From Saccoglossus kowalevskii (Eukaryota; Hemichordata; Enteropneusta; Harrimaniidae), in the NCBI RefSeq assembly GCF_000003605.2, contig NW_003123905.1, positions 530,137-551,667 of the forward strand: a stretch of 21,531 bases of DNA, in the 5' to 3' direction. Position 1 is the first letter of the stretch; every line of letters starts with the position of its first letter. Of this stretch, positions 3,406 to 20,912 are shown in pieces. The position numbers and the translations under genes were made by a program. Below the pieces are notes generated by a model, which ran no database searches, was not told where the DNA came from, and saw nothing but the letters and a program-made list of their open reading frames with translations.

Positions 3406-3503
3406 ATGAAAGACGTCTCCGGTTTTTTAAGCGAACAGCAAAGTAGTTCGAGTCCGGAGGTAGCCGCCGAATGGGCTAAGCTTGAAGAACTGTATAACAA
3501 AAA
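3406..3503 (+). CDS. PSMD13: PSMD13 exon 1 (start codon)
   Basis: Encodes residues 1-32 and two bases of Lys33. It ends in the conserved LEELYNK stretch, then aa|GTGAGT. The Ser-rich part (residues 13-16) is the variable portion of the family N-terminus. Confidence 0.95.
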
Positions 3504-6500
3504 GTGAGTGGTATTTAAGAATGTTTATGCATAAGTTCTCGATTCTCTATTTTACGTTGTCTGCCCCAAACACAATCTCCATAGAGAATATGTTAGTCTT
3601 GGTACATCACTGTTTTGAAAACAGAATCTCCAAAAAGCCGACTGGTAAGTAATTACTTTTTTGTGAGGATATCCAATTGTTTTAGGCAAATATGAGAGGT
3701 AAAACTTGGACTAAAATAATCTATTCTGTTCGTGTAAGTAGTTTCTATTTATATTTATCATTGATTCATTATTCAATTGAATTTTGAATTCTTTTTAAAT
3801 CAATTTTTACATTTCATGTACTTTTATTATTTACTTTATTAATCTGAAAACCTAAATAGAAATGTTAACTCTTTTTCTTGACGGTATTAATAAAGCATTA
3901 TTCTTTTCTATTCAATTACATTATCAAAATTAAATGGGTGAGTATGACTTCTGTTTGTGACTCAATACTCAAAAAGAGATTTGTGGTAAAGTTAAAGAAA
4001 TACGTGTTTTGCTCTTATCAACCATAATCCTAATGCCAAGAAAGTGGAAACACAAAATTTCAAATATTATTTTTGGAATTGCCAGTTTAGATCGCTTTGA
4101 TGAAAGCTAAAATAAACATTTCAGAATTTTTGCACAATAATTTTTTGAATAAATAATCCAAAACCTGCTACCATGGAAATGTTAGATTGTTCTGTATTAT
4201 AACCAGTAAATAACTTTCAGAATACTAAAATTTATATAAAATTTATATTAATAAATATAAATTTATATTAATATATTATTTGTGAATTTGATGTCAGTAA
4301 TGTCATCGAGTATATCGGTAATTTTCAAATGACCTGAACATCTTCCAATCAGCAACCAGATTAGCACTTAAGGAGCAGTACAAAAAAGAATTCCAATAAA
4401 CAATCTCAACCTCTCGTTTGAATTTGAATCTGCACTAATAAATCCTCTTATTTACAAAGTTTGAGTTTACAACATCCATGGGTAATCCAAATTGAGAGTA
4501 CTGTAAAATACTTTATTTTACCTGGAATTTAATATTCTCTGAAAAGACTTTTTGAGTGTTTTGTATGAAATTTGTTTTTCATTGATTTTTGATGTGTTGG
4601 ATATGAAGTACAGGATAACAAGGTATATTCGCTGGATTTTATTTTCAGTGATTCATCCCTTTTAATAGCCAAAATAAGTTCCAACTAAAAAAAAAGTATT
4701 TTAGAGTATAGTGAACTTGGTGAATTATTTTTGTTTTTTCTTTGCAGACTTTGGCATCAGCTGACATTACATCTTCTCGTCTTTGTCAAAAATCCATGTT
4801 TTGATCAAGGTGATGGATTATTACAGGTATGGTACCGTAGTTGTCAGAGTATAACCCCAAAATTATAGCATTTTACAAGTCATTTATCTGATTATAACAA
4901 TTGTGAAACACAGCATGACTAGATCGCGCATCGGGATCATTTGCTGCTACGCAATGAAGTTGTGTTTGTTTTTATTTAAAACTTCGTTTAGAATTTACTT
5001 TTGTTACCCCAAAACGTACAGACCAATATTCATGTAAAAAGCAGGGTCGAATGCTGTTCCACTTAGTAAACACACACCCAAGAGTGATTAGTGACCCCGG
5101 GGCCTAACAACCGATCCTCAAGTTAATTTGGACGGCGCTAATCGATGAAGACACTTGTGTACACACGCTGAGTTGTTGAATTAGCATAAATTATTGCTCA
5201 GGAGAAGTTTTAACTTTTATCAGTTTTTAAGCTCCCCCCCCCCTAATTTCAGTCAATTTGCCCTTTTATTGGGGTTTATACTTGGACAACTATGGTACAT
5301 TGTATTTGCAGAATGGAATCAGGGAATGAAGGTTGTCCACCATACTTGAACTGCACTGGTGCAAACACTGGATAATATAGACTCAGTAAATACAATAATA
5401 TCATATTATATACCACTAACAAACACTCTTGTGTATGTACTTGTTATTTCACAGTTGTATGAACATTTCCTTTCCGACTTTGAACATCGGATAAATGCTC
5501 TATCGCTTACAGAGTTGGTAGTTATCATCATCAAACAAATTAAAGGTGGGTGTGACATTAAATTGAAAAGTAGATAGCATCGTCGTCATAATCTTATTAT
5601 TATACAAGAGTTGATACAATCGGGATACCAGAAATAAAAACAAATGGGATCATTGGATGATTTTAACAAGATATAAGAGTTCAAATGTCATAGAAAATGG
5701 TGAGAGTTTGCATTTTACACTAATTTTAATGGATTATTTATTCATATCTCAAAATTTATGTGGTAGTTGCTTCATCTGTTTTACATAAATTTTAAAAATT
5801 CCCCATAAATGTAATATATAAGCTAAATTTACATGAACACTGAAAAGAAGGACAATACTAGTAGTGGTGAACACCTTTGCCAGCAATCACCACTGTCTTT
5901 AATTGTCTCTGCAAGGGTGGCACTTCAATTCATTTATTGTGAAGTATATCATCTATTTATAAATGAGTAATTTCATAATAAAAGTCGTCTTCATTCAGTA
6001 GGTAGAAAGACTCCCATAAAAAAAAAAAAGCTTGTTTGTGTTTTAGAGATTTTAGGTATGCCAAACTTGCCTTAATTTGTAACACATCGTTTCTGATGCT
6101 GTTGTATAATATTATTATACATCTGTCACCATTACGCTATAGAGTGCCATAATTTTGCAGTATTTCGGGTGTATTTTCATCCTACCATATTAGGAAATGC
6201 GAATTTCAAATATGGAATGATTACACACGTAAGCGTCCTCTAATAATAAAAACAAATGTGGCTGCCACCAGGGTTTGACTGGACTCCACACAAAGGAGTT
6301 CGCTGATACTTTTTGGATTTCGGTATTCCCATGATGTATCGTTTGGAAGGAAAAGATGTATAATAATACGGTTATTACAAGGATACCTCTGCTGCTCGTC
6401 GGTCAATGCTTCCGTTGTACTCTCTTCGTGCAAACTTTGAGGTATTCTCGTAATAACCTCATATTATTGTAACTATCCATGGAGGCCTATATCAGGCGAT

Positions 6501-9500
6501 GTGTTACTGTTTTACATAGTCACATGTACTCTGGTTTCTCGTCTGAAGATTAGTGTGGTGAGAACACTTCTGATATTTTTTTCGATATGTCAGTTCACTG
6601 AATTTTGTATTGTATTACTTACAGACCCTGATGAATCAGTTGCATTCCTTGAAAAAATAAAAGAGAAGGTAAATGATTGCTAAATTGCACTCTGAGATCA
6701 TTCCTGTAGTTTTATTAGGGTCTTATACGTATATGTAATATTTGATGATCGGAACTTGAATTATTGACTAATTTTTAGCGATTTTCAGTGCATAAAAATG
6801 TTGGCAATCATTTGATGTACAATTTTGATTGATTGTTCGAAATCCATTTGCTAAATTTTGTTTATATTATTCCAAATCTGGCCTGCAGTAATTTGAAATA
6901 TTGGCAAATATTTTCAGCAATTTGTGCATATTCATCGCATCTAATACTTCACCTAATACACCCCAATAAAACAAATCTTTATTGTAAACTCTCTTGTTTA
7001 ACTTCAAAATGCATTCAAGTGAAAAATGTCTTTTTAGCGAATTTAGCGAGAGAACTAATTCGCTAATTTAAGATGTCGCTAATGACTTCATTATAAATTC
7101 AAAATGGCGGACCAACGTCTTTTTCTCCACATACACACTTTGTAAACAACACAGAAAACATAATCTGGAGGGCTTCCTCATTACACTTGACATTTTTTTT
7201 TTGCGCATTTGTTTTGGCAGGCGACAGACAAGTATTATGAAAACAGGAAATCAACAAAGAGAGATTCGCTAAATCAACATTTCGCTATTGTGCCATTTTA
7301 CCACTATTTGCTAAAATAGTATGTCGCTTTTTCAACATGTTTTCCAGTATTTACTTTGATTTGAATTTTATAGGTCAAGGCAAATGAAGAAGCAGTTATA
7401 TTATGCATGACAGCCATGGCTATTATTAAGCTGCGGACTGGGAAATTAGAGGAATGCAAGGTCAGTGTTACATGTGTGTAGGTCTTGTATTTGTACAGTA
7501 TATACAACTGAGATGGTGATCGCTTTTATAGGACCACATTGCCATAGTGACCACATTGCCATAGTGACCACATTGCCATAGTGACCACATTCAGAGATGA
7601 CTAGCATTTGATGGTGACAGAATGACAATCTTATTCAAATTGTTGATCATCTACTTATATTCAAAACTAAAGTTGTCAGCGAATTAGAGATGAAACGGAG
7701 ATGGGTAGCTGAAGTATTTTCTTGGATGTAAATTCTTATAGGATTCACATGTGATTACAAACATCTATGTTATGTTATGTTTGAATATTACTAGTAATAT
7801 AATGTTAAAATGTCTATGTAATAAATTATGAGTGCTCCATAAACTAGTAAATTGTGAATAAATTTGACACATCTTTGCATCTCAGTCCACTATAACTGAT
7901 ATCTTTATCAGTCCCCGTTCGTACGAAGTCCGAAAACAGGGACTTATAATTCGGTCTCCGTCCGGAGTCATATTTCAGAATCCTTTGGACCGATTCCGTT
8001 CATTCTTTGCATGTGCATGTGCCTAGTACTTTATGGTGGGACATATGCACATGCAGTGGTTTAGCGATTCGATTCAAAATGGCCGACTGGCAGCCATCTT
8101 GTTTTTTGAAAATGTTGTTTTTTGGACATGCTTTGTCAGTTTTCATTCAAACTTGGTACATAAATTATACCATGTCCATGACAATTTCTTTCACAATTGG
8201 ATCAAAGATGGCCGACTGGCAGGCATCTGACCCTTTGGCCTTACTACTATATTTTTAAGATTTATGTACAATTTTCATTCGTATTTGGTACATACATCAT
8301 ACATGTCACTTTGTTTCATAATCAGATCAAAGATGGCCGAATAATGGCTGTTTGTATTTGTGGCCATATTACTATATCTCTGTCACCCATGTATCATTTT
8401 CTTTGATATTTAATATGTCATAAATGGATACATGTACATGTCAATTCAATTTGCAATTTTTATCAAATTTTGCCGACTGGCGTCCATCTTTTTTGTTTAA
8501 AATGTGATAACTTGGACATGATTTCATATGCGATCTATGTTTTTCTTTGCTATGTCCCGAACCGGAGGGGTCGTCATGCAACACATGTTCGAACTTGATG
8601 TAAATAATCTGTTGTATACGCCACTTGGGACTCAAGTTTCAAGGATATGCTCGCGACAACCCCTCCACTTTAATATGACGAGCACAAAGAGAACTTTCAA
8701 AAATTTAATGGGGACTGTGTCATTTTCAATGACTTGTTTATTCATATTTCAAACAAAAATCCAAATATAAAATTGATCACATTTCAAACAAGAATACAAA
8801 TTTAAAATTCATCACATTTCAAACAAAAACTCAAATATAAATGATACATCTTTTTTTATTAATAACATTTTAAACAAGCACATGTCTATGCATTTGTATA
8901 TTTAATTAACAGTAGTACCTAAACTAATTGGTAGTGAACATATGTGTTTTTCTTAACATGTTATTTAATTTTCTATACCTCTAGGTAATTGTATTAGAAG
9001 CAGGTAAATTACTTGAGAACATTGATGGTGTAACAACTGTACACAGTAGATATTATGATGTCACCAGTAATTGTCATAAATTAATGGGTTCCCATGCAGA
9101 CTACTATCGTGAAGCTTTACGATATCTAGGATGTATAAATGTTGAGGATATACCTTGTAAGTAGATGATGTGATAATGTCTGTCTATGATTGTATTGATT
9201 ACTAATGATATAATGATTATATCTTGTAAACTATTAATGTTTTGCTGCTAGATTAATTCACAATTTTGAGAACACTCGGACAACATTTTGTTCTGAAGAA
9301 CACCAGTGATAAGTAAACTGCAGTTTCCATCCTTGTGGACAGTGTTTCCCCTAGAAGTATGAGAATAATTGCCAAGTGGCTATTGCAACCTCCAAAACAT
9401 TAGCCAAAAATAATTTTCTGTAGCCAGTTCCTGTTACATAGAAAAACTAATTTAACTATAAAAAAAAGTGGGACCCTCGAAAGGAGTAAAATTTAAGCAT

Positions 9501-12500
9501 GAAATATAATGCTTATATGAAACACACAACTTTGTGATGTAACTGACTTTTATTAACATGTTCAAGTAATAAAAGTGAACATTAGTATAACAATGTAGTA
9601 TAACAAAACAAACATTCATTTTCACAATGCAATGTTTAATTAACACCATATAATTCTGATTCACTTAACTTTCAGTGTCTGACACTTGGTCTAGACAATC
9701 AGAACTATAGTCTAGTTGCTCATTAATTTCACTTAGAGTGTGTTGTAATTGTCTTACATTGGTGGCCATACTTGCACATTATTGAACACCTCAGTTGATG
9801 GGACACTACCGGTACTATAAATTCTTCTTTGTTTCTGACTGTACCAAACAGCATAAGCAGAATGGAAATCAAAATTTGTAAGTGCTGGACCATTTAGTCT
9901 AATGTTCATTAAAACACTTACATTTTCCACCTTGAGCCTATTTCTAAGCTTAGTTTTGCACAAATTATATGCACTGTAGCCCTGTTCACATTCAGCAGTT
10001 GACATAGGAATGGTTAAACCAATCTGCACCAAATTTTGCAAGGTTTGGATATTTTTTTTTATAATATATGAGCAAATACTTTCCAAATTGTTTTACAGCC
10101 AGGTAATAAAGTCCTTAGATTGATCCAATCATTCCTTGTATCTACTGGATGAATTAGTAGGGCAAAAACAGTACCAGATTGCAATACCTTCTCAGTACCA
10201 TAATGCTCTACTAATATATCAATTTCAGAAAAACCAAAATCTAAAAGTTTCTCCTTATTGTTAGGGAGAGTATCTGGTTCAAAAATACTGAATGCTTTAA
10301 GAATACCAGTATCTGGAAACCTAGTGGCAATATTATCTGCCAATTTCACAATAAATTGGGTTCGTACTGAATTAAAATCATTTCTCTGTTTCTTACTGTC
10401 TTGAATTGTACGACTCTTATAAAGAAATGAATCGCCCTCATTTATTGTTGGAATTGCCTAAAATAAAGTTTTCAAATTACTTCCATCAATAGACTTCATT
10501 GCAACAATAGAATCTATAGTTGACTGTATATTGCTTGAAACTGATGAAAATGTAACATTTCTGCTCTGAAATTTTAGAGATAAAAACTTGATAAAATACA
10601 GTGCATCAGAAAGAAAACAAGATGTGGCTAGAAATTTGCAGTTAGACACTGACTTTAAAAGACCTGATGCACATAGATCACCCTTTTCACTCTGTTCTAT
10701 AAAGCATGTTATCAGTGAATCAAAACATATCACTATAGCATCAACAGCCCCACTAAATGAAAGCCAACGTGTATCGAATACTTGCTTAAACCTTCTTTTG
10801 GCATCGCCCAGTATGTGCTGTATTTTCTTTCGTTTGCTCATGTGGTTTGGCATTTATTATTTCTTGGTATTTTTTAAGGTATGGTATAGATTTTGCAGCT
10901 TGGGATGTAGCCAAGGCTAAGTGATGGGCTACACAATGTACAGACACTATAAAAGGATTTTGCTCTTTTACTCGTGCAGCAACTCCAGACTTTTTGCCTG
11001 TAAACACTGATGCACCATCACTACCTAGTGAAATAAAATGTTCAACTGTAAATCCTTTCATTTTAATGATTTCCAAAAGTTTCTCTGTTATTGTTTCAGC
11101 ATCACCACTGTCTAACTCCACAACTGTTAAAAAGTTAGTTATCAACAAAACGTATATAAACCATTGGGGTTTTATCAACAGAAACATCTGTAGACTCATC
11201 AGACAAAATAGCATAAAACTTGGCCTCCTTAACATCTTCTCCCATCTTATTTATTACATCAGCAATAGATGCTTGAAAACCTTCTATACTGCTGGAGTGC
11301 TCATATGTTGTTCGATTATCACACTTCAAATTCTGGATGGATTCAACTCCCTAAGTTAAAAAAAATCATTTTAGTTTTGTTTTAAAATTGACAAATTATC
11401 AACAAAAAATTACTAAATAAACTAGGTAATGGTGAATGAAGAGATAAAACATTCTTAGTAATATATTACGTACCTGTTCCTTCAAAAACTGATTCATAGA
11501 TGTCAATTTTACATTGGCGATATTTTCCTTGGCGAACCAGTACACGCTGCGTAGAGCTGCCAATACAGCAGGCTCCGCTTCGGCAAACAAATTTTTCATT
11601 GCATGCTTCATATCTCGTGATGAAAATTTATCTTGCATTGCTTGTTTATGATCCCTTGTCGATGCATGTTTCTTCATTGTCAAGTTTCAGTTTATCACAT
11701 CCATTAGTAAAGATATTTCGGGTATGATTTAACCCAGTCATCACGCATACCTCCGTTGACGCGACTTCCCATTTTCTTGGTACTTTCAGGACCTTGATTT
11801 TTCTTTGGTTTATCGTCCGTTGCGACATTTATTTGAACTTTGTTATCAGACTTGTCTTTTTTTGAAGGAGGTGGTTTTACTTGTCCTTCTACGAAAGTGT
11901 CAAGCGTACCCTGATAAATTCATTTGCTACAAGCGGAGCCTTGCATATTGGCAGCCATTTTAAAGAATGTTATGATGACGTCATTCATATAATACAGCGC
12001 ACGCTATTGGATAACAAACGGAATGAAGTCACAGGATACCCAATTGGAAACAGCCTTACAAAATAGAGTTGTTTTATGATAATTAGTGTTTACGTGTTTC
12101 GTTTTTTTTCACGTGGAAATCTTTCTGGGCAGGCAAACAGAAAAAGTTCACACATTTTTGTTATAATTTTAGCAATCGCCAAATGACGAATTGGGGAAAC
12201 TTTTCATTAGCCATTCTGATTTTTTTTTCGCCACTTGGCGATCGGTAGCAGAAACACTGCTTGTGGACAGGATTTATACAATGCAGTGTCATTGACAGGA
12301 ATCCTCGTCAGAAAATTATTTCAGAGGTTGAAGCCAGAGATTGCGCATATACTGCTTCCCTTACCCTCCAATATTAAAAAAGTACCTTCACCAGAGTACA
12401 AAAAGGGGTCCCATTTGTACACAGAATATATTGCGAGTTCCAGGTCATTTTCTCATCTGGACTTACTACAATGCTAGCACAATTCCTGCTGGGAGCCCTA

Positions 12501-15500
12501 TGCTCCGTGTCTAGGTCCCTAGTTTTACTTGTAATTGAACTCACTTTACTTCCTACACACTTCATTACTGCAACATTTGCTTTTGAAAGCTCATCTTCGT
12601 GCTTCTGTTTACAAGATCCATTTACATCCTCAGTGTCATCACAACTGTACTCCCATCTGAATTGTATTCTCCATATTCCATTCTGATTTCTCCTGTCTTG
12701 ACTTCCTTGTTAAATTGTCGCAGCCAGGGGGCTTTTCTGGCTTCCGGATTTCACACCTCATTTCTATGCTTTTAGATACTGTAATAACACTGTTGTTTTG
12801 TTTTTCAGCTGATGAACAGAAAGATAGAGCTTTCAATCTTGGGCTAGCAGCATTATTAGGAGATGGTGTATATAATTTTGGAGAACTTGTGAGTTTTTAA
12901 TTTATGCATGCCTAGTTGTCTTGTGTTGTACCAAATAGAAATTAACAATACCTCTATAAAGCACAAGCTCTAACCTTGTCTTAGTATCAAAGTATGAAAA
13001 CGGAAACTTATAACTAAACTTCTAATCATCCACATCTATATCTCAGCAAAACTAAAAACTTATCAGCTACATTTAAATTATAATTAATATTAGTACTTTA
13101 ACAGTGTATCTATAATAATATAAACACTAAACTCAAATGAACTCTCTATATATTTATTTTCTGTTATTTTCAGTTGGCTCATCCTGTCTTGGACTCGTTG
13201 AAAGAGACTGACAAAATCTGGCTGGTTGACTTGCTGTTTGCTTTTAATAGTGGTAACTTAGAAAGATACGAGTCTCTCAAACCACAGTGGAAACAACAGG
13301 TAAGTGCCCTAATAGCCATACATGCGTCTTTTATATTTCACTATCAATGTCTTTATTCATGCCTTGTACATGTATACTGGGACTGATATGTAGCCCAGGA
13401 AAATCGTGTTTAAGAATAATTTAATTAAGAAATATAATTTATTTTGCTTTCCAAATATCCAACTGTCCATAGTGGCTACATGTGATATGCTATGTAAAGA
13501 ACTCCTGGACGAATAGAGCAACAGAGCATTCTATCCAAACAAGCTACAGGGTATAGCCCCCTCTAGTGGTATATAAGGCCTCATTTGTTCCACTGTATTT
13601 TTTGTTTGTATACAAATAATATAGAATTAAGAAATTTGAGTGAATGGAAAGAAAATTTTCACTTCCAAGTTGTCAAAAAGGTAACTTTACCTACTGGATT
13701 ACATGTATGTGACAAGTTGCAACTGTGTTCCCCTCTCAAAATAGGAGTCATATTACTCCATTCTGTTATGGTGACCAATGTATTTACCACTTGCTCTATT
13801 TTCTTCCAAGCCTGATCTTGCAGCTAGTGAGATGAATCTACGGCAAAAAATCTCCCTACTTTGCTTAATGGAGATGACTTTTACAAGACCAGCCAATCAC
13901 AGAAATCTTGCTTTTGATGAAATTGCAAAGGAAGCTAGGTTGCCTGTTGGTGAGGTGAGTTTTCATAGGAAGTTAGGTTGCCTGTTAGTGAGGTGAGTTT
14001 TCATAGGAACTTAGGTAGCCTGTTAGTGAGGTGAGTTTTCATAAGAAGCTAGGTAGCCTGTTAGTGAGGTGAGTTTTCCTAGAACGCTAGGTTGCATCAA
14101 TTGGGATGAGTTTTCCTAGGAAGTTAGGTTGTCTGTGTGTGAGGTGAGTTTTTATAGCAAGTTAGGTTGCCTGTGTGTGAGGTGAGTTTTCATAAGAAGC
14201 TAGGTAGCCTGTTAGTGAGGTGAGTTTTCCTAGAACGCTAGGTTGCATCAATTGGGATGAGTTTTCCTAGGAAGTTAGGTTGTCTGTGTGTGAGGTGAGT
14301 TTTTATAGCAAGTTAGGTTGCCTGTGTGTGAGGTGAGTTTTCATAAGAAGCTAGGTACCCTGTTAGTGAGGTGAGTTTTCCTAGAAAGCTAGATTGCATC
14401 AATTGAGATGAGTTTTCCTAGTAAAGTTAATTTTGATAAGAAGCTAGGTAGCCTCAATTATTCAAGTGATTTTATTTTTGTAAAAAGCAACGTACAGCAT
14501 ACCATTGGATTTGACCAGAATATTTCTCATAATATTCACAAGATCAGTGACTGTAAAAAGTTTTCTTCTTCATTTCCACAGGTTGAACATTTAGTCATGA
14601 AAGCGCTATCATTAGGTTTGGTTAAAGGTTCCATTGATGAGGTTGATAAAAAAGTGCACATGACATGGGTCCAGCCACGAGTACTAGATCTGCAACAGGT
14701 AAATATACTCTCCATTAGAAGTGAACCTTCAGTAGACATGTAGAAATATAGAAATCTTCTGCTAGATTGCTTGAATATATGAACAACAATGATAAAGTAC
14801 TTGAGTAATCGTTAGTTATTTAATACCCCCAGAACTGAACACTAGTATATCATTTAGCACATCCAATAAAAATGCTCCTGTTTAACACCAGAAAGTTTAA
14901 ACACCAGAGGGTTGAATGAAATGTCTGTGGCATTTCTTTTGAATACCAACTCAACTACTGTAAAATACTTTATTTTCGCTTGGAATTAATCTTCGCTATT
15001 TTCGCTGAAGGGATGATTCAGTGAAAATAATATCCAGCAAATATATCTTTTTTCCTATACTGTAAAGTTACTAATTTTCACTGGGTTTAAATTTCACTGA
15101 TTTATCATTTTAGGCATATTCACGGTTTTATCATTTAGATAATGTGTTCTATGCAAAATTTTACATATTCACTGGGTTTTAATTTAGCGCATTTTCCAGT
15201 CAGCGAAATAAGCTAAATTAAAACCCAGTGAATAATTAACCCCTTTACTAGTATTTTACATTTAACACGTCAAAAATCAGTGAAAATAAATTCCATACAA
15301 TACACCTAAAGTCTTTTCAGCGAAAATTAATTCCAGCTAAAATAAAGTATTTTACAGTATTATATTTTGCTTTATCACTTACTGTAGAAAACTTCACATA
15401 TCGATGAATGTGGCTAAATCCATGGTTTTAGGGAACGCATAAAATGCCATCAATTTTTGTTAATATTAGAATATACTTTTTGATATATTAACTATGTGAA

Positions 15501-16153
15501 AAATAACATATTTACTCTATTAGAAGTGTATATAGTGTATATAGAGTGCAAAATCTCATTTGTTGTATATTGATAAGATTCACTAAAATTTACTTATTTT
15601 AACACATTAATAATAGCATGCACCACTAATAGAGTATTGCTATTTTTAGATTAAATTTTACGATCACAGTAACTTATGATATAATGATAGATGTATAATA
15701 AATATGAGGTTATTATGAAAATATACCAAAACATTTTGCACAAGGGCATTTGGGTGATTGTATTAGCAGCTTTTCAAAGCCTGCACAATTTATATACTCA
15801 ATTAAATTTCAGTATATTTTAATTTAAATATTTTCATACTGAATTCGTAAAACAAAAAATTCGGTGAAAATAAATTCCACACAAGACACCCAAAAAGTCT
15901 TTTTCAGCGACAATTAGTTCCAGCTAAAATAAAGTATTTTACAGTAAATATATTCTAAATAGGGTAGACATTCAAACATGTCTGTACAGTGTTTTACGAA
16001 CTAATGAATTATGTTTTTACTGCTATATGTATAATAATATTTAATAATTTATTATAGATTGCAGGTATGCAGCAGCGATTGCAGCATTGGTGTACAGACG
16101 TACAAAATATGGAAATGATGGTAGAGGTCAAAGCGCAAGATATACTTACGTAG
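3406..16153 (+). CDS. PSMD13: 26S proteasome non-ATPase regulatory subunit 13 (Rpn9), complete 11-exon gene
   Basis: Coding exons are 3406-3503, 4748-4826, 5455-5545, 6625-6668, 7374-7460, 8985-9156, 12809-12888, 13174-13299, 13811-13954, 14582-14698 and 16058-16153. They sum to 1134 bases: 377 residues plus TAG, against 376 residues in human PSMD13. Every junction is GT-AG and the frame stays open throughout. The start is supported by the family N-terminus MKDV.GFL, an A at -3, and an in-frame TGA at 3394-3396. Residues 1-260 form the helical-repeat part. About 270-345 is the PCI winged helix, with the hallmarks [31 protein letters not shown] and [14 protein letters not shown]. The protein ends AQDILT, as in the family. 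PSMD13 is a structural, non-catalytic subunit of the proteasome lid, in cytosol and nucleus. No residue of the PCI core looks lost, so I infer a working gene despite the transposon load in its introns. Expression itself cannot be seen. Confidence 0.97.
3504..4500 (+). other. PSMD13 intron 1, repeat-free part
   Basis: AT-rich intron. The only structure seen is a low-complexity AATTTATATTA repetition at about 4229-4280. Confidence 0.6.
4501..4706. mobile_element. TA-flanked inverted-repeat element, copy 1 (intron 1)
   Basis: Begins TA|CTGTAAAATACTTTATTTTA and ends AAGTATTTTAGAG|TA, 206 bases. Inner arms repeat the pattern CTGGAATTT.AT...CTCTGAAAAGAC against AATAAGTTCCAACTAAAA. TA at both ends suggests a Tc1/mariner-type non-autonomous element. 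It ends 41 bases before exon 2. Confidence 0.75.
4748..4826 (+). CDS. PSMD13: PSMD13 exon 2
   Basis: 79 bases, opened by the acceptor ttctttgcag and closed by cag|GTATGG. It completes Lys33 and encodes [18 protein letters not shown]-type sequence ending GDGLLQ (to residue 59). A short inverted-repeat element ends 41 bases before it and another starts 8 bases after it. Confidence 0.95.
4835..5295. mobile_element. Second type of TA-flanked inverted-repeat element (intron 2)
   Basis: Left end TA|CCGTAGTTGTCAGAGTATAA then CCCCAA; right end, reverse strand, CCATAGTTGTCCAAGTATAA then ACCCCAA, followed by TA. 461 bases including a run of ten C (5234-5243). No reading frame of note. The left TA sits at intron positions +7/+8 of the exon 2 donor. 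Confidence 0.78.
5455..5545 (+). CDS. PSMD13: PSMD13 exon 3
   Basis: 91 bases, acceptor ttatttcacag, donor g|GTGGGT. Encodes [20 protein letters not shown] and on to KQIK (residues 60-89), plus the first base of Asp90. Confidence 0.95.
6354..6474. repeat. Imperfect foldback repeat in intron 3
   Basis: GGTTATTACAAGGATACCTC (6370-6389) pairs with 6439-6458 at 18 of 20 positions, and the outer AT-rich flanks (TATAATAATAC against ATATTATTGTAAC) extend the stem to about 35 bases. A related single arm lies near 15688-15722 (GATGTATAATAAATATGAGG, then TTATTATGAAAATA). Confidence 0.65.
6625..6668 (+). CDS. PSMD13: PSMD13 exon 4 (44-base microexon)
   Basis: Acceptor ttacttacag, donor aag|GTAAAT. Encodes [15 protein letters not shown] (residues 90-104), matching the family FLEK.REKV segment, whose Val is supplied by the next exon. 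At 44 bases it is the shortest coding exon of the gene. Confidence 0.93.
7374..7460 (+). CDS. PSMD13: PSMD13 exon 5
   Basis: 87 bases, phase 0 at both ends; acceptor attttatag, donor aag|GTCAGT. Encodes [20 protein letters not shown] and on to EECK (residues 105-133), the helical repeat matching the human DEAVILCKTAIGALKL segment. Confidence 0.94.
7532..7591 (+). repeat. 17-base tandem repeat (intron 5)
   Basis: GACCACATTGCCATAGT repeated three times plus the start of a fourth, nearly identical copies, 71 bases after exon 5. Confidence 0.95.
8066..8500 (+). repeat. About 130-base tandem repeat with AAAATGGCCGACTGGC core (intron 5)
   Basis: Cores at 8075, 8203, 8327 and 8463 (spacing 124-136): CAAAATGGCCGACTGGCAGC, then CATCTT, separated by ACTTGGTACATA...CATGTCC-type linkers. 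The last copy is decayed at its start. Confidence 0.8.
8746..8850 (+). repeat. 35-base tandem repeat (intron 5)
   Basis: Three units of ATTTCAAACAAAAATCCAAA then TATAAAATTGATCAC, at 8746, 8781 and 8816, with a weaker echo near 8865. Confidence 0.85.
8985..9156 (+). CDS. PSMD13: PSMD13 exon 6
   Basis: 172 bases, the longest exon; acceptor acctctag, donor cct t|GTAAGT. Encodes residues 134-190 with the conserved blocks [12 protein letters not shown] and [11 protein letters not shown], plus the first base of Ser191. The intron that follows carries the hAT transposon. Confidence 0.95.
9332..9339. repeat. hAT target-site duplication, left copy
   Basis: CTTGTGGA, directly before the CAGTG terminus and identical to 12260-12267. 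Confidence 0.92.
9754..11930 (-). pseudogene. Decayed hAT transposase (ZNF862/C17orf113-like)
   Basis: Reverse-strand blocks, N- to C-terminal. About 11926-11704: basic N-terminus then W.KSYPKY and a stop; the expected Cys-rich finger is missing. 11683-11475: [12 protein letters not shown] and [13 protein letters not shown]. 11350-11135: SDESTDVS, with the first catalytic Asp region. About 11140-10786: [20 protein letters not shown] and [20 protein letters not shown], with the second Asp region. 10853-10458: [11 protein letters not shown]. About 10455-10059: a linker. 10086-9754: the hAT dimerisation region [16 protein letters not shown] and KTKLRNRL. Frame breaks lie near 11690, 11138, 10855 and 10080, with a TAG at 10458-10460. 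A GT-AG intron is predicted between the second and third blocks. The protein cannot be made as it stands. Confidence 0.85.
11351..11473 (-). other. Predicted intron inside the hAT transposase
   Basis: On the reverse strand the frame ends FLKEQ, then cag|GTACGT; 123 bases later a T-rich tract and aacttag open GVESIQNLK in phase 0. Joining the two restores the block order usual in this transposase family. Splicing is inferred. Confidence 0.6.
12260..12267. repeat. hAT target-site duplication, right copy
   Basis: CTTGTGGA, directly after the ...CACTG terminus. Removing the element and one copy leaves an uninterrupted intron sequence (ccatCCTTGTGGACAGGA). Confidence 0.92.
12268..12808 (+). other. 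PSMD13 intron 6 after the hAT insertion
   Basis: No protein, RNA or repeat recognised; the open frames here are short and unlike any known family. Confidence 0.5.
12809..12888 (+). CDS. PSMD13: PSMD13 exon 7
   Basis: 80 bases; acceptor gtttttcag, donor ctt|GTGAGT. Completes Ser191 and encodes [19 protein letters not shown] to FGEL (residue 217), close to the human EQQERAFTLGLAGLLGEG block. This confirms that the frame is rejoined across the hAT insertion. Confidence 0.95.
13174..13299 (+). CDS. PSMD13: PSMD13 exon 8
   Basis: 126 bases, phase 0 at both ends; acceptor gttattttcag, donor cag|GTAAGT. Encodes residues 218-259 with [11 protein letters not shown], a Trp-Leu-Val-Asp stretch and the family hallmark AFNSGN.ER. 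Confidence 0.95.
13556..13569 (-). promoter_or_regulatory. CTCF-like motif in PSMD13 intron 8
   Basis: The reverse strand reads CCACTAGAGGGGGC, 13 of 14 positions of the bilaterian CTCF consensus CCASYAGRKGGCRS. A TATA-like TATATAAGG follows on the + strand at about 13571. Confidence 0.35.
13811..13954 (+). CDS. PSMD13: PSMD13 exon 9
   Basis: 144 bases, phase 0 at both ends; acceptor ttcttccaag, donor gag|GTGAGT. Encodes PDLAASE, then [16 protein letters not shown] and the first PCI winged-helix segment [14 protein letters not shown] (residues 260-307). Its last 25 bases plus the donor form the first unit of the 38-base tandem array in intron 9. Confidence 0.95.
13930..14420 (+). repeat. 38-base minisatellite built on the exon 9 splice donor
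   Basis: Thirteen units of 37-38 bases, starting inside exon 9 and running into intron 9 (for example GAAGTTAGGTTGCCTGTTAG, then TGAGGTGAGTTTTCATA). Unit 1 is the true exon end and donor. Ten units keep GAG|GTGAGT; units 5, 9 and 13 read GATGAGT and lack the GT. Units 4-7 (14044-14194) and 8-11 (14195-14345) are near copies of one another, so the array grew partly by a 151-base higher-order duplication. A decayed piece continues to about 14455. Confidence 0.95.
14582..14698 (+). CDS. PSMD13: PSMD13 exon 10
   Basis: 117 bases, phase 0 at both ends; acceptor atttccacag, donor cag|GTAAAT. Encodes [20 protein letters not shown] through [13 protein letters not shown] (residues 308-346), the most conserved PCI block. 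Confidence 0.96.
14958..15357. mobile_element. TA-flanked inverted-repeat element, copy 2 (intron 10)
   Basis: A 400-base element of the same family: TA|CTGTAAAATACTTTATTTTC at the left and AAATAAAGTATTTTACAG|TA at the right, with matching inner arms (TTGGAATTAATCTTCGCT against AGCGAAAATTAATTCCAGCT). It encloses a perfect 23-base hairpin. No coding capacity. Confidence 0.85.
15166..15234. repeat. Perfect 23-base hairpin inside copy 2
   Basis: 15166-15188 (TATTCACTGGGTTTTAATTT, then AGC) is exactly complementary in reverse to 15212-15234, with a 23-base loop. Confidence 0.93.
15358..15859 (+). other. PSMD13 intron 10 between element copies
   Basis: AT-rich. Contains GTGTATATA repetitions near 15525 and the foldback-arm relative at 15688-15722. 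No gene. Confidence 0.5.
15860..15944. mobile_element. TA-flanked element, copy 3, one end only
   Basis: GTGAAAATAAATTCCACACA, CAGCGACAATTAGTTCCAGC and TAAAATAAAGTATTTTACAG followed by TA match the right half of copy 2. A possible left end (TACTGTAGAAAAC, about 15383) is too diverged to call. Confidence 0.7.
16058..16153 (+). CDS. PSMD13: PSMD13 exon 11 (stop codon)
   Basis: Acceptor aatttattatag. Encodes residues 347-377, the C-terminal helix with [16 protein letters not shown] and the ending AQDILT, then TAG at 16151-16153. Confidence 0.95.
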
Positions 16154-19238: not shown

Positions 19239-20577
19239 CTGATGAGAAAGTATGATGAGATATTTCTTGTAAGATTTGGTCAGCTGACCTAAACACAGAG
19301 TTGGGTCAATCCATTAAAGAACTTTTATTATAGTGCCTTGCTTCAACAAACTGGAGTAAATGGTACAGGTAACTACCAGGAAAAAAAAATCTGTCTTATT
19401 TGCGCATGTTTGCCAAATAAGCATGGCATAATATCCAACAAAAATCTCTAATTTCAATCAAAATTAGTGTTTGTTTACAAATTCATCACATCCAACAACT
19501 CTGCCAAAGCCATGTGAGAAAAATAAAGGCCACCTCCTTGCATCATTTTCAAATTCCAAAGAACAAAAGAAAAACCTTAGTTTCTTTTTCTCACTACTGA
19601 ACGTAAAACAAAATCTTGCAATTAATTATGCTAATGTTTTTCTTGTTATTGAAAAATGTGTTTAAAAACCGTGTTAAAGAAGATTTCAAACATTTGTTTG
19701 GTTACATGTTTGTATCCAGTGAGCTGATATTTATATTCATGCCTGATGAATGAAGGAGAGCCCCACAAATGTCACCAGAGAGGGCATTATAGAACGAAAA
19801 TGAGCAAATTAAAACTTCCAAACCTTGCTGGAACTAATTACCTGTTAATGTACCCATGGTGTAACCAAAACTACTCCTCTGTGGTTTTGGACGATTCTTT
19901 GCCTGATCTTTCCATTCATTGTATTTCTCCTCTGCTTTCAGTCTTCTTTCCTTCTCTTCCTCTTCTTTCTTTGCCTGTTTTTCCTTTTCCTTGCGCTTTC
20001 TTTCTTTTTCGGCCTCTTTCTTTTTCTCAGTCCACTCCTGGAATTTCTCCTGGAATATAAAATATACATCTTATATATTACTTAGTTGCCATGGTAAACT
20101 ACTGCTCACAGTGTGACAGCAATTACTAGTACCGTAATACAAACTTTCCCAGACTGCCAAGTAGCATAGATGTTCCTATTTTCTGAATAATGCATCATAT
20201 TTGCATGGGAGAGCAAAGACATCCAACTTACCGTAGCCTTTTCTTCAATTTTTCTTTTCTCTTCTTTCTGCATCTCCTCCTCAATTCGTTTTTTTCTCAG
20301 CTCATTCTTAGTCCGCACTTTCTGCTGAATAGTTTTCTGTTCCGACCACTCTTTATATTTTCCACTTGCTTTTTTTAATAATTCCTCTTTTTCTTTCTTT
20401 TTTTCCTCCTCCTGTCTTTGTTTCTCTTCCTCAATTTTCATTGCTTTCTTAACCTTTAGGCGATCTTCCTTCTCTTTACTAACTAACCACTGTTCCCACG
20501 GTGATAACGTGTTTCCATGGTCACTGGATGAGATTGAGCTCTCTGGTGTCTTGATGTTTCTGGTTAAATTGGCTGGT
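19015..20577 (-). CDS. CCDC34: CCDC34-like coiled-coil protein, last three coding exons (5' end missing)
   Basis: On the - strand the exons are complement 20232-20577, 19842-20049 and 19015-19238, joined by GT-AG introns with matching phases and ending in TGA (19015-19017). About 258 residues are visible; the human protein is about 373. Order: a Ser/Thr-rich linker; SPWEQWLVSKEKEDR, matching the family SPWEEWL.GKEKEER; then a long Lys/Glu-rich coiled coil with repeated Y/F..W modules (KYKEW, KFQEW, KYNEW); then NRPKP, SFGYTMGTLT, SYYNPVPWQP and a basic tail. The YNP.PW.P motif near the C-terminus is diagnostic of CCDC34. The human protein is linked to sperm flagellum and cilium assembly. No ATG precedes the first visible exon, which begins in phase 2, so at least one upstream exon is needed. 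The gene converges on PSMD13. Confidence 0.88.
19239..19841 (-). other. CCDC34 last intron
   Basis: 603-base GT-AG intron with phase-1 ends; no repeat or gene recognised inside. Confidence 0.7.
19842..20049 (-). CDS. CCDC34: CCDC34 penultimate exon
   Basis: Reverse-strand acceptor tatattccag, donor aca g|GTAATT. 69 codons plus one base: EKFQEWTEKKKEAEKE through KYNEWKDQAKNRPKP to SFGYTMGTLT, paralleling the human KFQEWLENAKHKPRP and SYGYANGKLTG blocks. Confidence 0.88.
20232..20577 (-). CDS. CCDC34: CCDC34 first visible exon (coiled coil)
   Basis: Reverse-strand acceptor gaataacag after 20577, donor acg|GTAAGT at 20231. Holds one base of a split codon and 115 codons, including the SPWEQWL motif and most of the charged coiled coil. 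Confidence 0.87.
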
Positions 20578-20912
20578 CTGTTATTCAAAGTAAGAAAGAT
20601 ATACCTAGCTTATTAGATTGTTTTTCAGAGTGTACAAGTTGAAAGAACAGATTATACTGTACAACCAATTGATCTCCCTGGTTAACATTGCTTCTTTGCA
20701 ATTTTCGAGTGCCCCCTTGTGGTACTAAATAGAATAATTTTTTTTTTTTTGTTCTGCTGTTCAATTTACAACTTGGCAAAATTATTCGAGTAGTGCTGAA
20801 ACTGAAATTGAACCAAGTAGAGTATTTTATTATATGTTCATCAAGCCCTCATTATTATATAAGTTCATATCATAAAAATATCGAGAATGAAAATTTGGGT
20901 CACAAGACAATT
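20578..20912 (-). other. DNA upstream of the first visible CCDC34 exon
   Basis: Probably intron. It holds an A/T run (20738-20748) and the CTCF-like motif at 20709; no further coding exon recognised. Confidence 0.45.
20709..20722 (-). promoter_or_regulatory. CTCF-like motif upstream of the visible CCDC34 exons
   Basis: The reverse strand reads CCACAAGGGGGCAC, 13 of 14 positions of the CTCF consensus, in the same orientation as the site at 13556. Confidence 0.35.

Follow-up and report, generated by a model that had tools for sequence, protein, structure and literature searches.

The window analysed here is a stretch of 21,531 nucleotides of the Saccoglossus kowalevskii genome, in which a minisatellite repeats the end of a coding exon together with its 5' splice site. 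The locus raises the question of how the gene can be spliced correctly when ten near-identical donors follow one another, and of what the additional copies mean for it.

The PSMD13 gene and its exon-9 array

The gene in the window is a complete PSMD13 (Rpn9, 26S proteasome), located on the + strand. Human PSMD13 aligns end to end with the gene model (E 2.1e-164), which carries the PSD13_N and PCI domains. Exon 9 is flanked by introns 8 and 9 of 511 and 627 nt. In the 572-Mb assembly searched, all ten PSMD13 matches (10/10) lie on a single contig, C1646, and no second PSMD13 locus was found. The features considered below are, in window positions:

3406..16153, + strand: PSMD13 coding region, 11 exons, 377 aa, all ten introns 285-3652 nt (gene model)
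13811..13954, + strand: PSMD13 exon 9 (gene model; ungapped match to human PSMD13 over the exon 9/10 junction)
13930..14421, + strand: minisatellite of 13 units, 37/38 bp per unit, with ten intact donor copies (unit alignment, TRF, shuffles)
13955..13960, + strand: true exon-9 donor (donor 1), GTGAGT, phase 0 (gene model and human alignment)
13994..13996, + strand: in-frame TGA reached from any intact donor from the third on, donors 3-10 (gene model)
14026..14357, + strand: exact 151-bp higher-order tandem duplication (181/181 positions match at offset 151)
14422..14474 (end approximate), + strand: degenerate trailing unit or units with a decayed donor (local score 45, maximum 25 in 200 shuffles)
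14582..14698, + strand: PSMD13 exon 10 (gene model), with a frameshifted stop at 14592 when donor 2 is used

Other elements were also seen in the window. A hAT-like transposase piece lies in intron 6 on the - strand (9754-10092; Dimer_Tnp_hAT, E 4.4e-6), and intron 5 holds two small tandem arrays without exon contact (7528-7591, 17 bp x 3.8; 8742-8841, 35 bp x 2.9). Located 3' of PSMD13 and in the opposite orientation are CCDC34-like exons (19834-20609, - strand; E 2.3e-15 and 1e-7).

The original prediction placed the array in PSMD13 and described its unit as the end of exon 9 plus the donor; gene model, human alignment and unit anatomy all agree with this. Each unit is built from the 25 last bases of exon 9 (24 in the 37-bp units) and the 13 first bases of intron 9. 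The unit alignment also confirms the predicted state of the donors: GAG/GTGAGT (the slash marks the exon end) is kept in 10 of the 13 units, and GT is changed to AT in the other three (ATGAGT). The donor positions are 13955, 13993, 14031, 14069, 14106 (AT), 14144, 14182, 14220, 14257 (AT), 14295, 14333, 14371 and 14408 (AT), with a spacing of 38 that falls to 37 ahead of each AT unit. The motif GAGGTGAGT occurs ten times in the window, every copy inside the array, compared with a mean of 0.05 and a maximum of 1 in 100 dinucleotide shuffles.

The array is organized at two levels. TRF reports a 38-bp period repeated 12.4 times (13929-14397) and a 151-bp higher-order unit repeated 3.1 times at 95%. 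Units 4-7 and 8-11 form exactly identical blocks, as had been proposed, and the last large step was therefore the duplication of a 151-bp block. Nine of the 13 units are distinct and 4/13 are exact copies of other units, pairwise identity among units ranging from 0.51 to 1.0. Units 5 and 9 are identical and unit 13 is 92% like them, so that a single variant spread by block copying would account for the three AT units better than three independent hits. The junction of exons 9 and 10 aligns gaplessly to human PSMD13, so the simplest direction of copying is from the exon to the array. The exact 151-bp duplication agrees with the further suggestion that the array is still changing in length; in the one assembly searched the array gave a single match, with no second haplotype.

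Reading frame and choice among identical donors

Use of any of the nine later intact donors leads to a premature stop in the gene model (9/9). It had been predicted that unit 1 alone keeps the PSMD13 frame and that the third donor brings in a stop ending at 13996. The gene model agrees and extends this stop to donors 3-10; it adds the correction that donor 2 stops as well, through a frame shift, at 14592 in exon 10. All nine stops are situated 104-491 nt upstream of the last exon junction. Transcripts with stops well upstream of the last junction are expected to undergo nonsense-mediated decay. Since the search of the assembly gave no further PSMD13 locus, donor 1 must presumably be used often enough, an argument from frame and single locus. 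Taken as a whole, the original prediction is partly supported: it was right on the gene, the exon, the unit anatomy and the frame logic.

Neither donor strength nor RNA structure distinguishes the first site. The U1 duplex has the same value of -10.8 kcal/mol at all ten array donors, and donor 1 is the third strongest of the ten donors of PSMD13. RNA structure hiding the later donors was considered but is not supported, as the fold has a z of -1.54 and 10/100 shuffles fold at least equally well. A structural favouring of donor 1 is likewise not supported, its predicted accessibility not being the highest.

A choice by position has been described for human genes by Carranza, Shenasa and Hertel 2022 (PMC9225289, in excerpt). 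Where the competing donors of their human minigenes were identical and the flanking introns 365 nt long, splicing used the upstream donor exclusively, whereas in human events the downstream donor is favoured when the downstream intron is short, the transition lying at 250 nt. Among human 5' splice-site events the downstream site was preferred in ~60% before strength matching and the upstream site in 60% after it; the proximity rule is a bias, not an absolute rule. PSMD13 resembles this system, as described in the excerpt, in its identical competing donors of near-equal strength and its flanking introns of >250 nt (511, 627), but it has ten donors instead of two and is a natural gene of another animal. 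By analogy, the simplest reading would be that exon definition selects donor 1.

Related arrays within and outside this genome

Arrays of this kind are called mirages, a term that reportedly goes back to Canestro et al. 2002. In amphioxus, mirages are tandem repeats across exon-intron boundaries, found in Adh3, the globins BflGb6 and BflGb9, PGBD5 and TnC; many of their splice signals are kept, their length changes, and regular splicing is reported as undisturbed (PMC3087553 and PMC3902484, in excerpt). New introns have been suggested to arise from such boundary-spanning arrays (PMC3087553, in excerpt). The PSMD13 array is similarly minisatellite-like, its unit spans an exon-intron boundary, and many but not all units keep the signal (GT 10/13, AT 3/13). 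As in the excerpted amphioxus descriptions, the interior is homogenised by turnover that excludes the edges: units 4-7 equal units 8-11, and unit 13 and the trailing unit are diverged. In contrast to those mirages, it lies on the donor side, presents ten identical donors in ~420 bp and is known here from genomic DNA alone.

A second relative is the human CBS 31-bp VNTR, c.1444_1467+7(16_21), whose name implies a unit of 24 exon bases and 7 intron bases repeated 16-21 times (PMC2630376, in excerpt). The PSMD13 array follows the same plan of exon end and intron start including the donor, with 25 + 13 bases in 13 copies. The CBS repeat is polymorphic, and enzyme activity is lower at higher copy numbers (PMC5188458, in excerpt); these properties are reported for human CBS, whereas the PSMD13 array is known from one assembly. 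Judged by its sequence, the PSMD13 array is a member of this known class of amphioxus mirages and human CBS VNTR. No survey of such arrays outside amphioxus was recognised in our literature search, which does not establish that there is no such survey. To the amphioxus and CBS cases the present analysis adds another genome, with eight attributed examples from two donor patterns alone.

These examples come from a survey limited to those two patterns, GTAAGT-type donors alone and acceptor-side arrays being left out. Three copies of GAGGTGAGT at gaps of 10-40 bases gave 38 matches on 9 contigs, against 16 matches on 3 contigs for the reversed motif. Three copies of AAGGTGAGT gave 40 matches (5 + 35) on 6 contigs, one of them shared, which yields 5 new arrays; the reversed control, with 133 matches (68 + 65), exceeds the motif. 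Together the two patterns identify 14 arrays, 11 readable upstream and three beside N runs and unreadable upstream (C1169, C166, C4506). Two wider searches were discarded, as satellites dominate the matches listed: AGGTRAGT in three copies (576 + 1270 matches, control 1157 + 690) and CAGGTGAGT in three copies (56 + 125, control 9 + 9). Long tandem arrays with donor-like motifs on C1113, C1089 and C998 are dominant among the motif-census matches listed.

The architecture recurs across several genes, since 8 of the 11 readable arrays could be attributed to an exon end: PSMD13, GABBR1, GABBR2, DGK, UBR5, TSC2, ACLY and ESF1. For the first seven, exon homology reaches the donor or ends <=2 residues from it; the eighth exon is putatively ESF1-like. 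The exons at the arrays, beyond PSMD13, gave the following matches:

GABBR1-like exon: E 5.8e-21
GABBR2-like exon: E 4.8e-4; ANF_receptor positions 2-32 weak, next exon 34-81
UBR5 exon: E 7.5e-5
ACLY exon: E 1.4e-27
Tuberin/TSC2 exon: E 2e-18
Diacylglycerol kinase (DGK) exon: DAGK_acc 29-62, E 0.0019, below cutoff; next exon 374 nt on, 63-100, E 2e-8

With Pfam alone, three exons fall short of the limit applied in the comparison below: PSMD13 exon 9 (E 0.04), ACLY (0.011) and GABBR2 (0.03). A UreE_N match in Pfam for the ESF1-like exon (0.0037) looks like chance and was left out of the true matches, and PDB gave no match for this exon; no PDB match was obtained for the DGK exon either, and no Pfam match for the next exon of GABBR1. 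Upstream of the C1912 array the sequence is exon-like without a family match, and upstream of the C1737 and C2182 arrays, both readable, no exon was seen.

Later donors in these arrays, counted as [ACG]AG/GTRAGT sites, mostly run into a stop within <=60 nt of the next exon (DGK 2/2, GABBR1 34/35, GABBR2 13/14). The GABBR1-like array (C2616, about 82-83.6 kb) consists of ~40 units with 36 such donors, the most of all arrays read, in a 1592-nt intron. At the UBR5-like exon end (C3162:114200-115000) the copied unit measures 33 bp, is in frame and remains open through six copies past the exon. Later donors would there add 11-aa repeats (GELNDSYMSGG and variants), and donor choice could vary the length of the protein rather than break it.

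The PSMD13 array is probably a mirage-type minisatellite whose extra copies are neutral passengers, with exon definition keeping splicing right and slipped transcripts decaying. A short tandem duplication may have happened to span the boundary between exon 9 and intron 9, and the array would then have grown into the intron through slippage or unequal exchange, the latest step being the four-unit block of 151 bp. The later copies are most likely neutral. Exon 9 would be recognised across the exon, from its 3' splice site to the nearest downstream 5' splice site, donor 1, and by the exon-centric proximity rule the identical later donors would lose as they define longer exons. Transcripts slipping to a later donor would meet a premature stop and be removed by nonsense-mediated decay. 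This reading is supported by the unit anatomy, the ungapped exon junction, the 9/9 stops, the equal donors, the lack of a favouring structure, the long introns and the failure of the assembly search to yield another PSMD13 locus, by the same architecture at other exon ends of the genome, and by mirages having been reported as harmless to splicing (PMC3087553 and PMC3902484, in excerpt). Against it stand the measurement of the proximity rule in human genes and cells, as excerpted from two-donor competitions where ten donors compete here, and the human CBS array, where more copies go with lower activity (PMC5188458, in excerpt), such arrays not always being harmless. Where two-site choice was tested in built minigenes (PMC9225289, in excerpt), PSMD13 offers ten natural copies of its own donor. 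A housekeeping gene together with arrays of 3 to 36 donors in one genome would test whether position alone decides.

Exon-intron boundaries might alternatively be hotspots at which minisatellites arise in this genome, for instance through events linked to transcription or splicing, as opposed to random seeds. We consider this unlikely. The attribution of 8/11 upstream-readable arrays to gene exon ends, with one more exon-like, speaks for it, but a search by the donor motif itself selects donors. A background sample was drawn from single GAGGTGAGT sites, taking every fifth of the first 100 listed (20 of 1712). About 10 of these 20 are exon-like by eye and 3/20 have clear Pfam matches; a fourth frame has weak DUF matches (E 0.01, 0.03). 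The arrays do not differ clearly from this background, with 9/11 against 10/20 exon-like by eye (Fisher p 0.13) and 4/11 against 3/20 with Pfam E <0.01 (Fisher p 0.21). In these comparisons "exon-like" was judged by eye and unblinded, Pfam was run on 10 of the 24 open background frames of >=20 residues, and most array exons were trimmed by eye before the search, arrays and background sites thus being treated differently. Of the array matches, four were counted as true, and one further match under the E 0.01 limit looks like chance. Reversed motifs of the same composition likewise occur in arrays: the reversed GAG motif has 16 matches on 3 contigs, and the reversed AAG motif has 133, against 40 for the true one. 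Random seeding is enough for the arrays, with no clear excess at donors, and a modest preference is possible at these numbers. The similar totals of the reversed and true single motif (1635 and 1712) had been considered as a sign of few true donors, which the 20-site sample contradicts.

Donor arrays might, furthermore, protect themselves by growing, as a longer intron would shift the choice from the last donor to the first; this too seems improbable. Intron 9 without the array would measure ~120 nt (14475-14581 plus 13 bases), in the class that favours downstream donors. At about five units the PSMD13 intron exceeds 250 nt, and by the transition given in the excerpt of PMC9225289 the first donor would then win. 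If so, short arrays would be harmful and long ones tolerated, and exon-end minisatellites should be long except where the intron has enough length of its own, as for the 3-copy DGK array in its 374-nt intron. The genome would then offer a natural series, from 3 donors (DGK) to 36 (GABBR1), of spliceosome choice among identical sites. The four array-bearing introns measured are all >250 nt (627, 374, 1592 and 819), which fits but proves little, all ten PSMD13 introns being >250 nt. The same ~120-nt estimate also counts against the exon-definition reading, as the proximity rule may have given the gene no protection while the array was short.

Possible regulation, assembly error and micro-exons

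A functional alternative is that the later donors form a regulatory device, diverting PSMD13 message into nonsense-mediated decay and thereby tuning the level of the proteasome subunit. The nine later donors, all stopping far upstream of the last junction, would suit such a switch, and repeat number tracks enzyme activity in human CBS (PMC5188458, in excerpt). Among the 9 distinct units, variation is 0.068 in donor columns and 0.36 in the other exon-derived columns, but it is low as well in the adjoining intron-derived columns (0.11); in the unit comparison, any selection on the donor columns is inseparable from recent copying. Exact copies account for 4/13 units and three units have no donor, unrelated genes carry similar arrays, and the later UBR5 donors remain in frame. 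Taken together, these points make a decay switch very unlikely.

An assembly artefact, in the array itself or in its copy number, is less probable still. The number of units is provisional, because the exact periodic stretch of 332 bp, difficult for short reads, stands in an assembly where N runs adjoin other tandem arrays. The 3511-base locus, however, is free of N, the units have diverged from one another (9/13 distinct, identity 0.51-1.0) and the trailing unit has decayed. The unit number may be wrong, but invention of the array itself is unlikely.

It is hardly credible that some units act as 24-nt cassette micro-exons repeating the last eight codons of exon 9, for although AG/24 nt/GTGAGT is found in six units (window 13969-14333), five of them open in frame, with EVRLPVSE as a near copy of the real EARLPVGE of exon 9, only a short pyrimidine run precedes the acceptor-like AGs (TTTTCATAG, TTTTCCTAG or TTTTTATAG), the first of these AGs is 14 nt from donor 1, and the insert would land in the PCI domain.

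Units bearing both an acceptor-like AG and a donor are also present elsewhere in the genome, at C4441:873824-874380 and C3228:276071-278160. In both arrays the acceptor-like AG corresponds to coding sequence in the source exon (LASSSDEEGNQ; LLWFQR).
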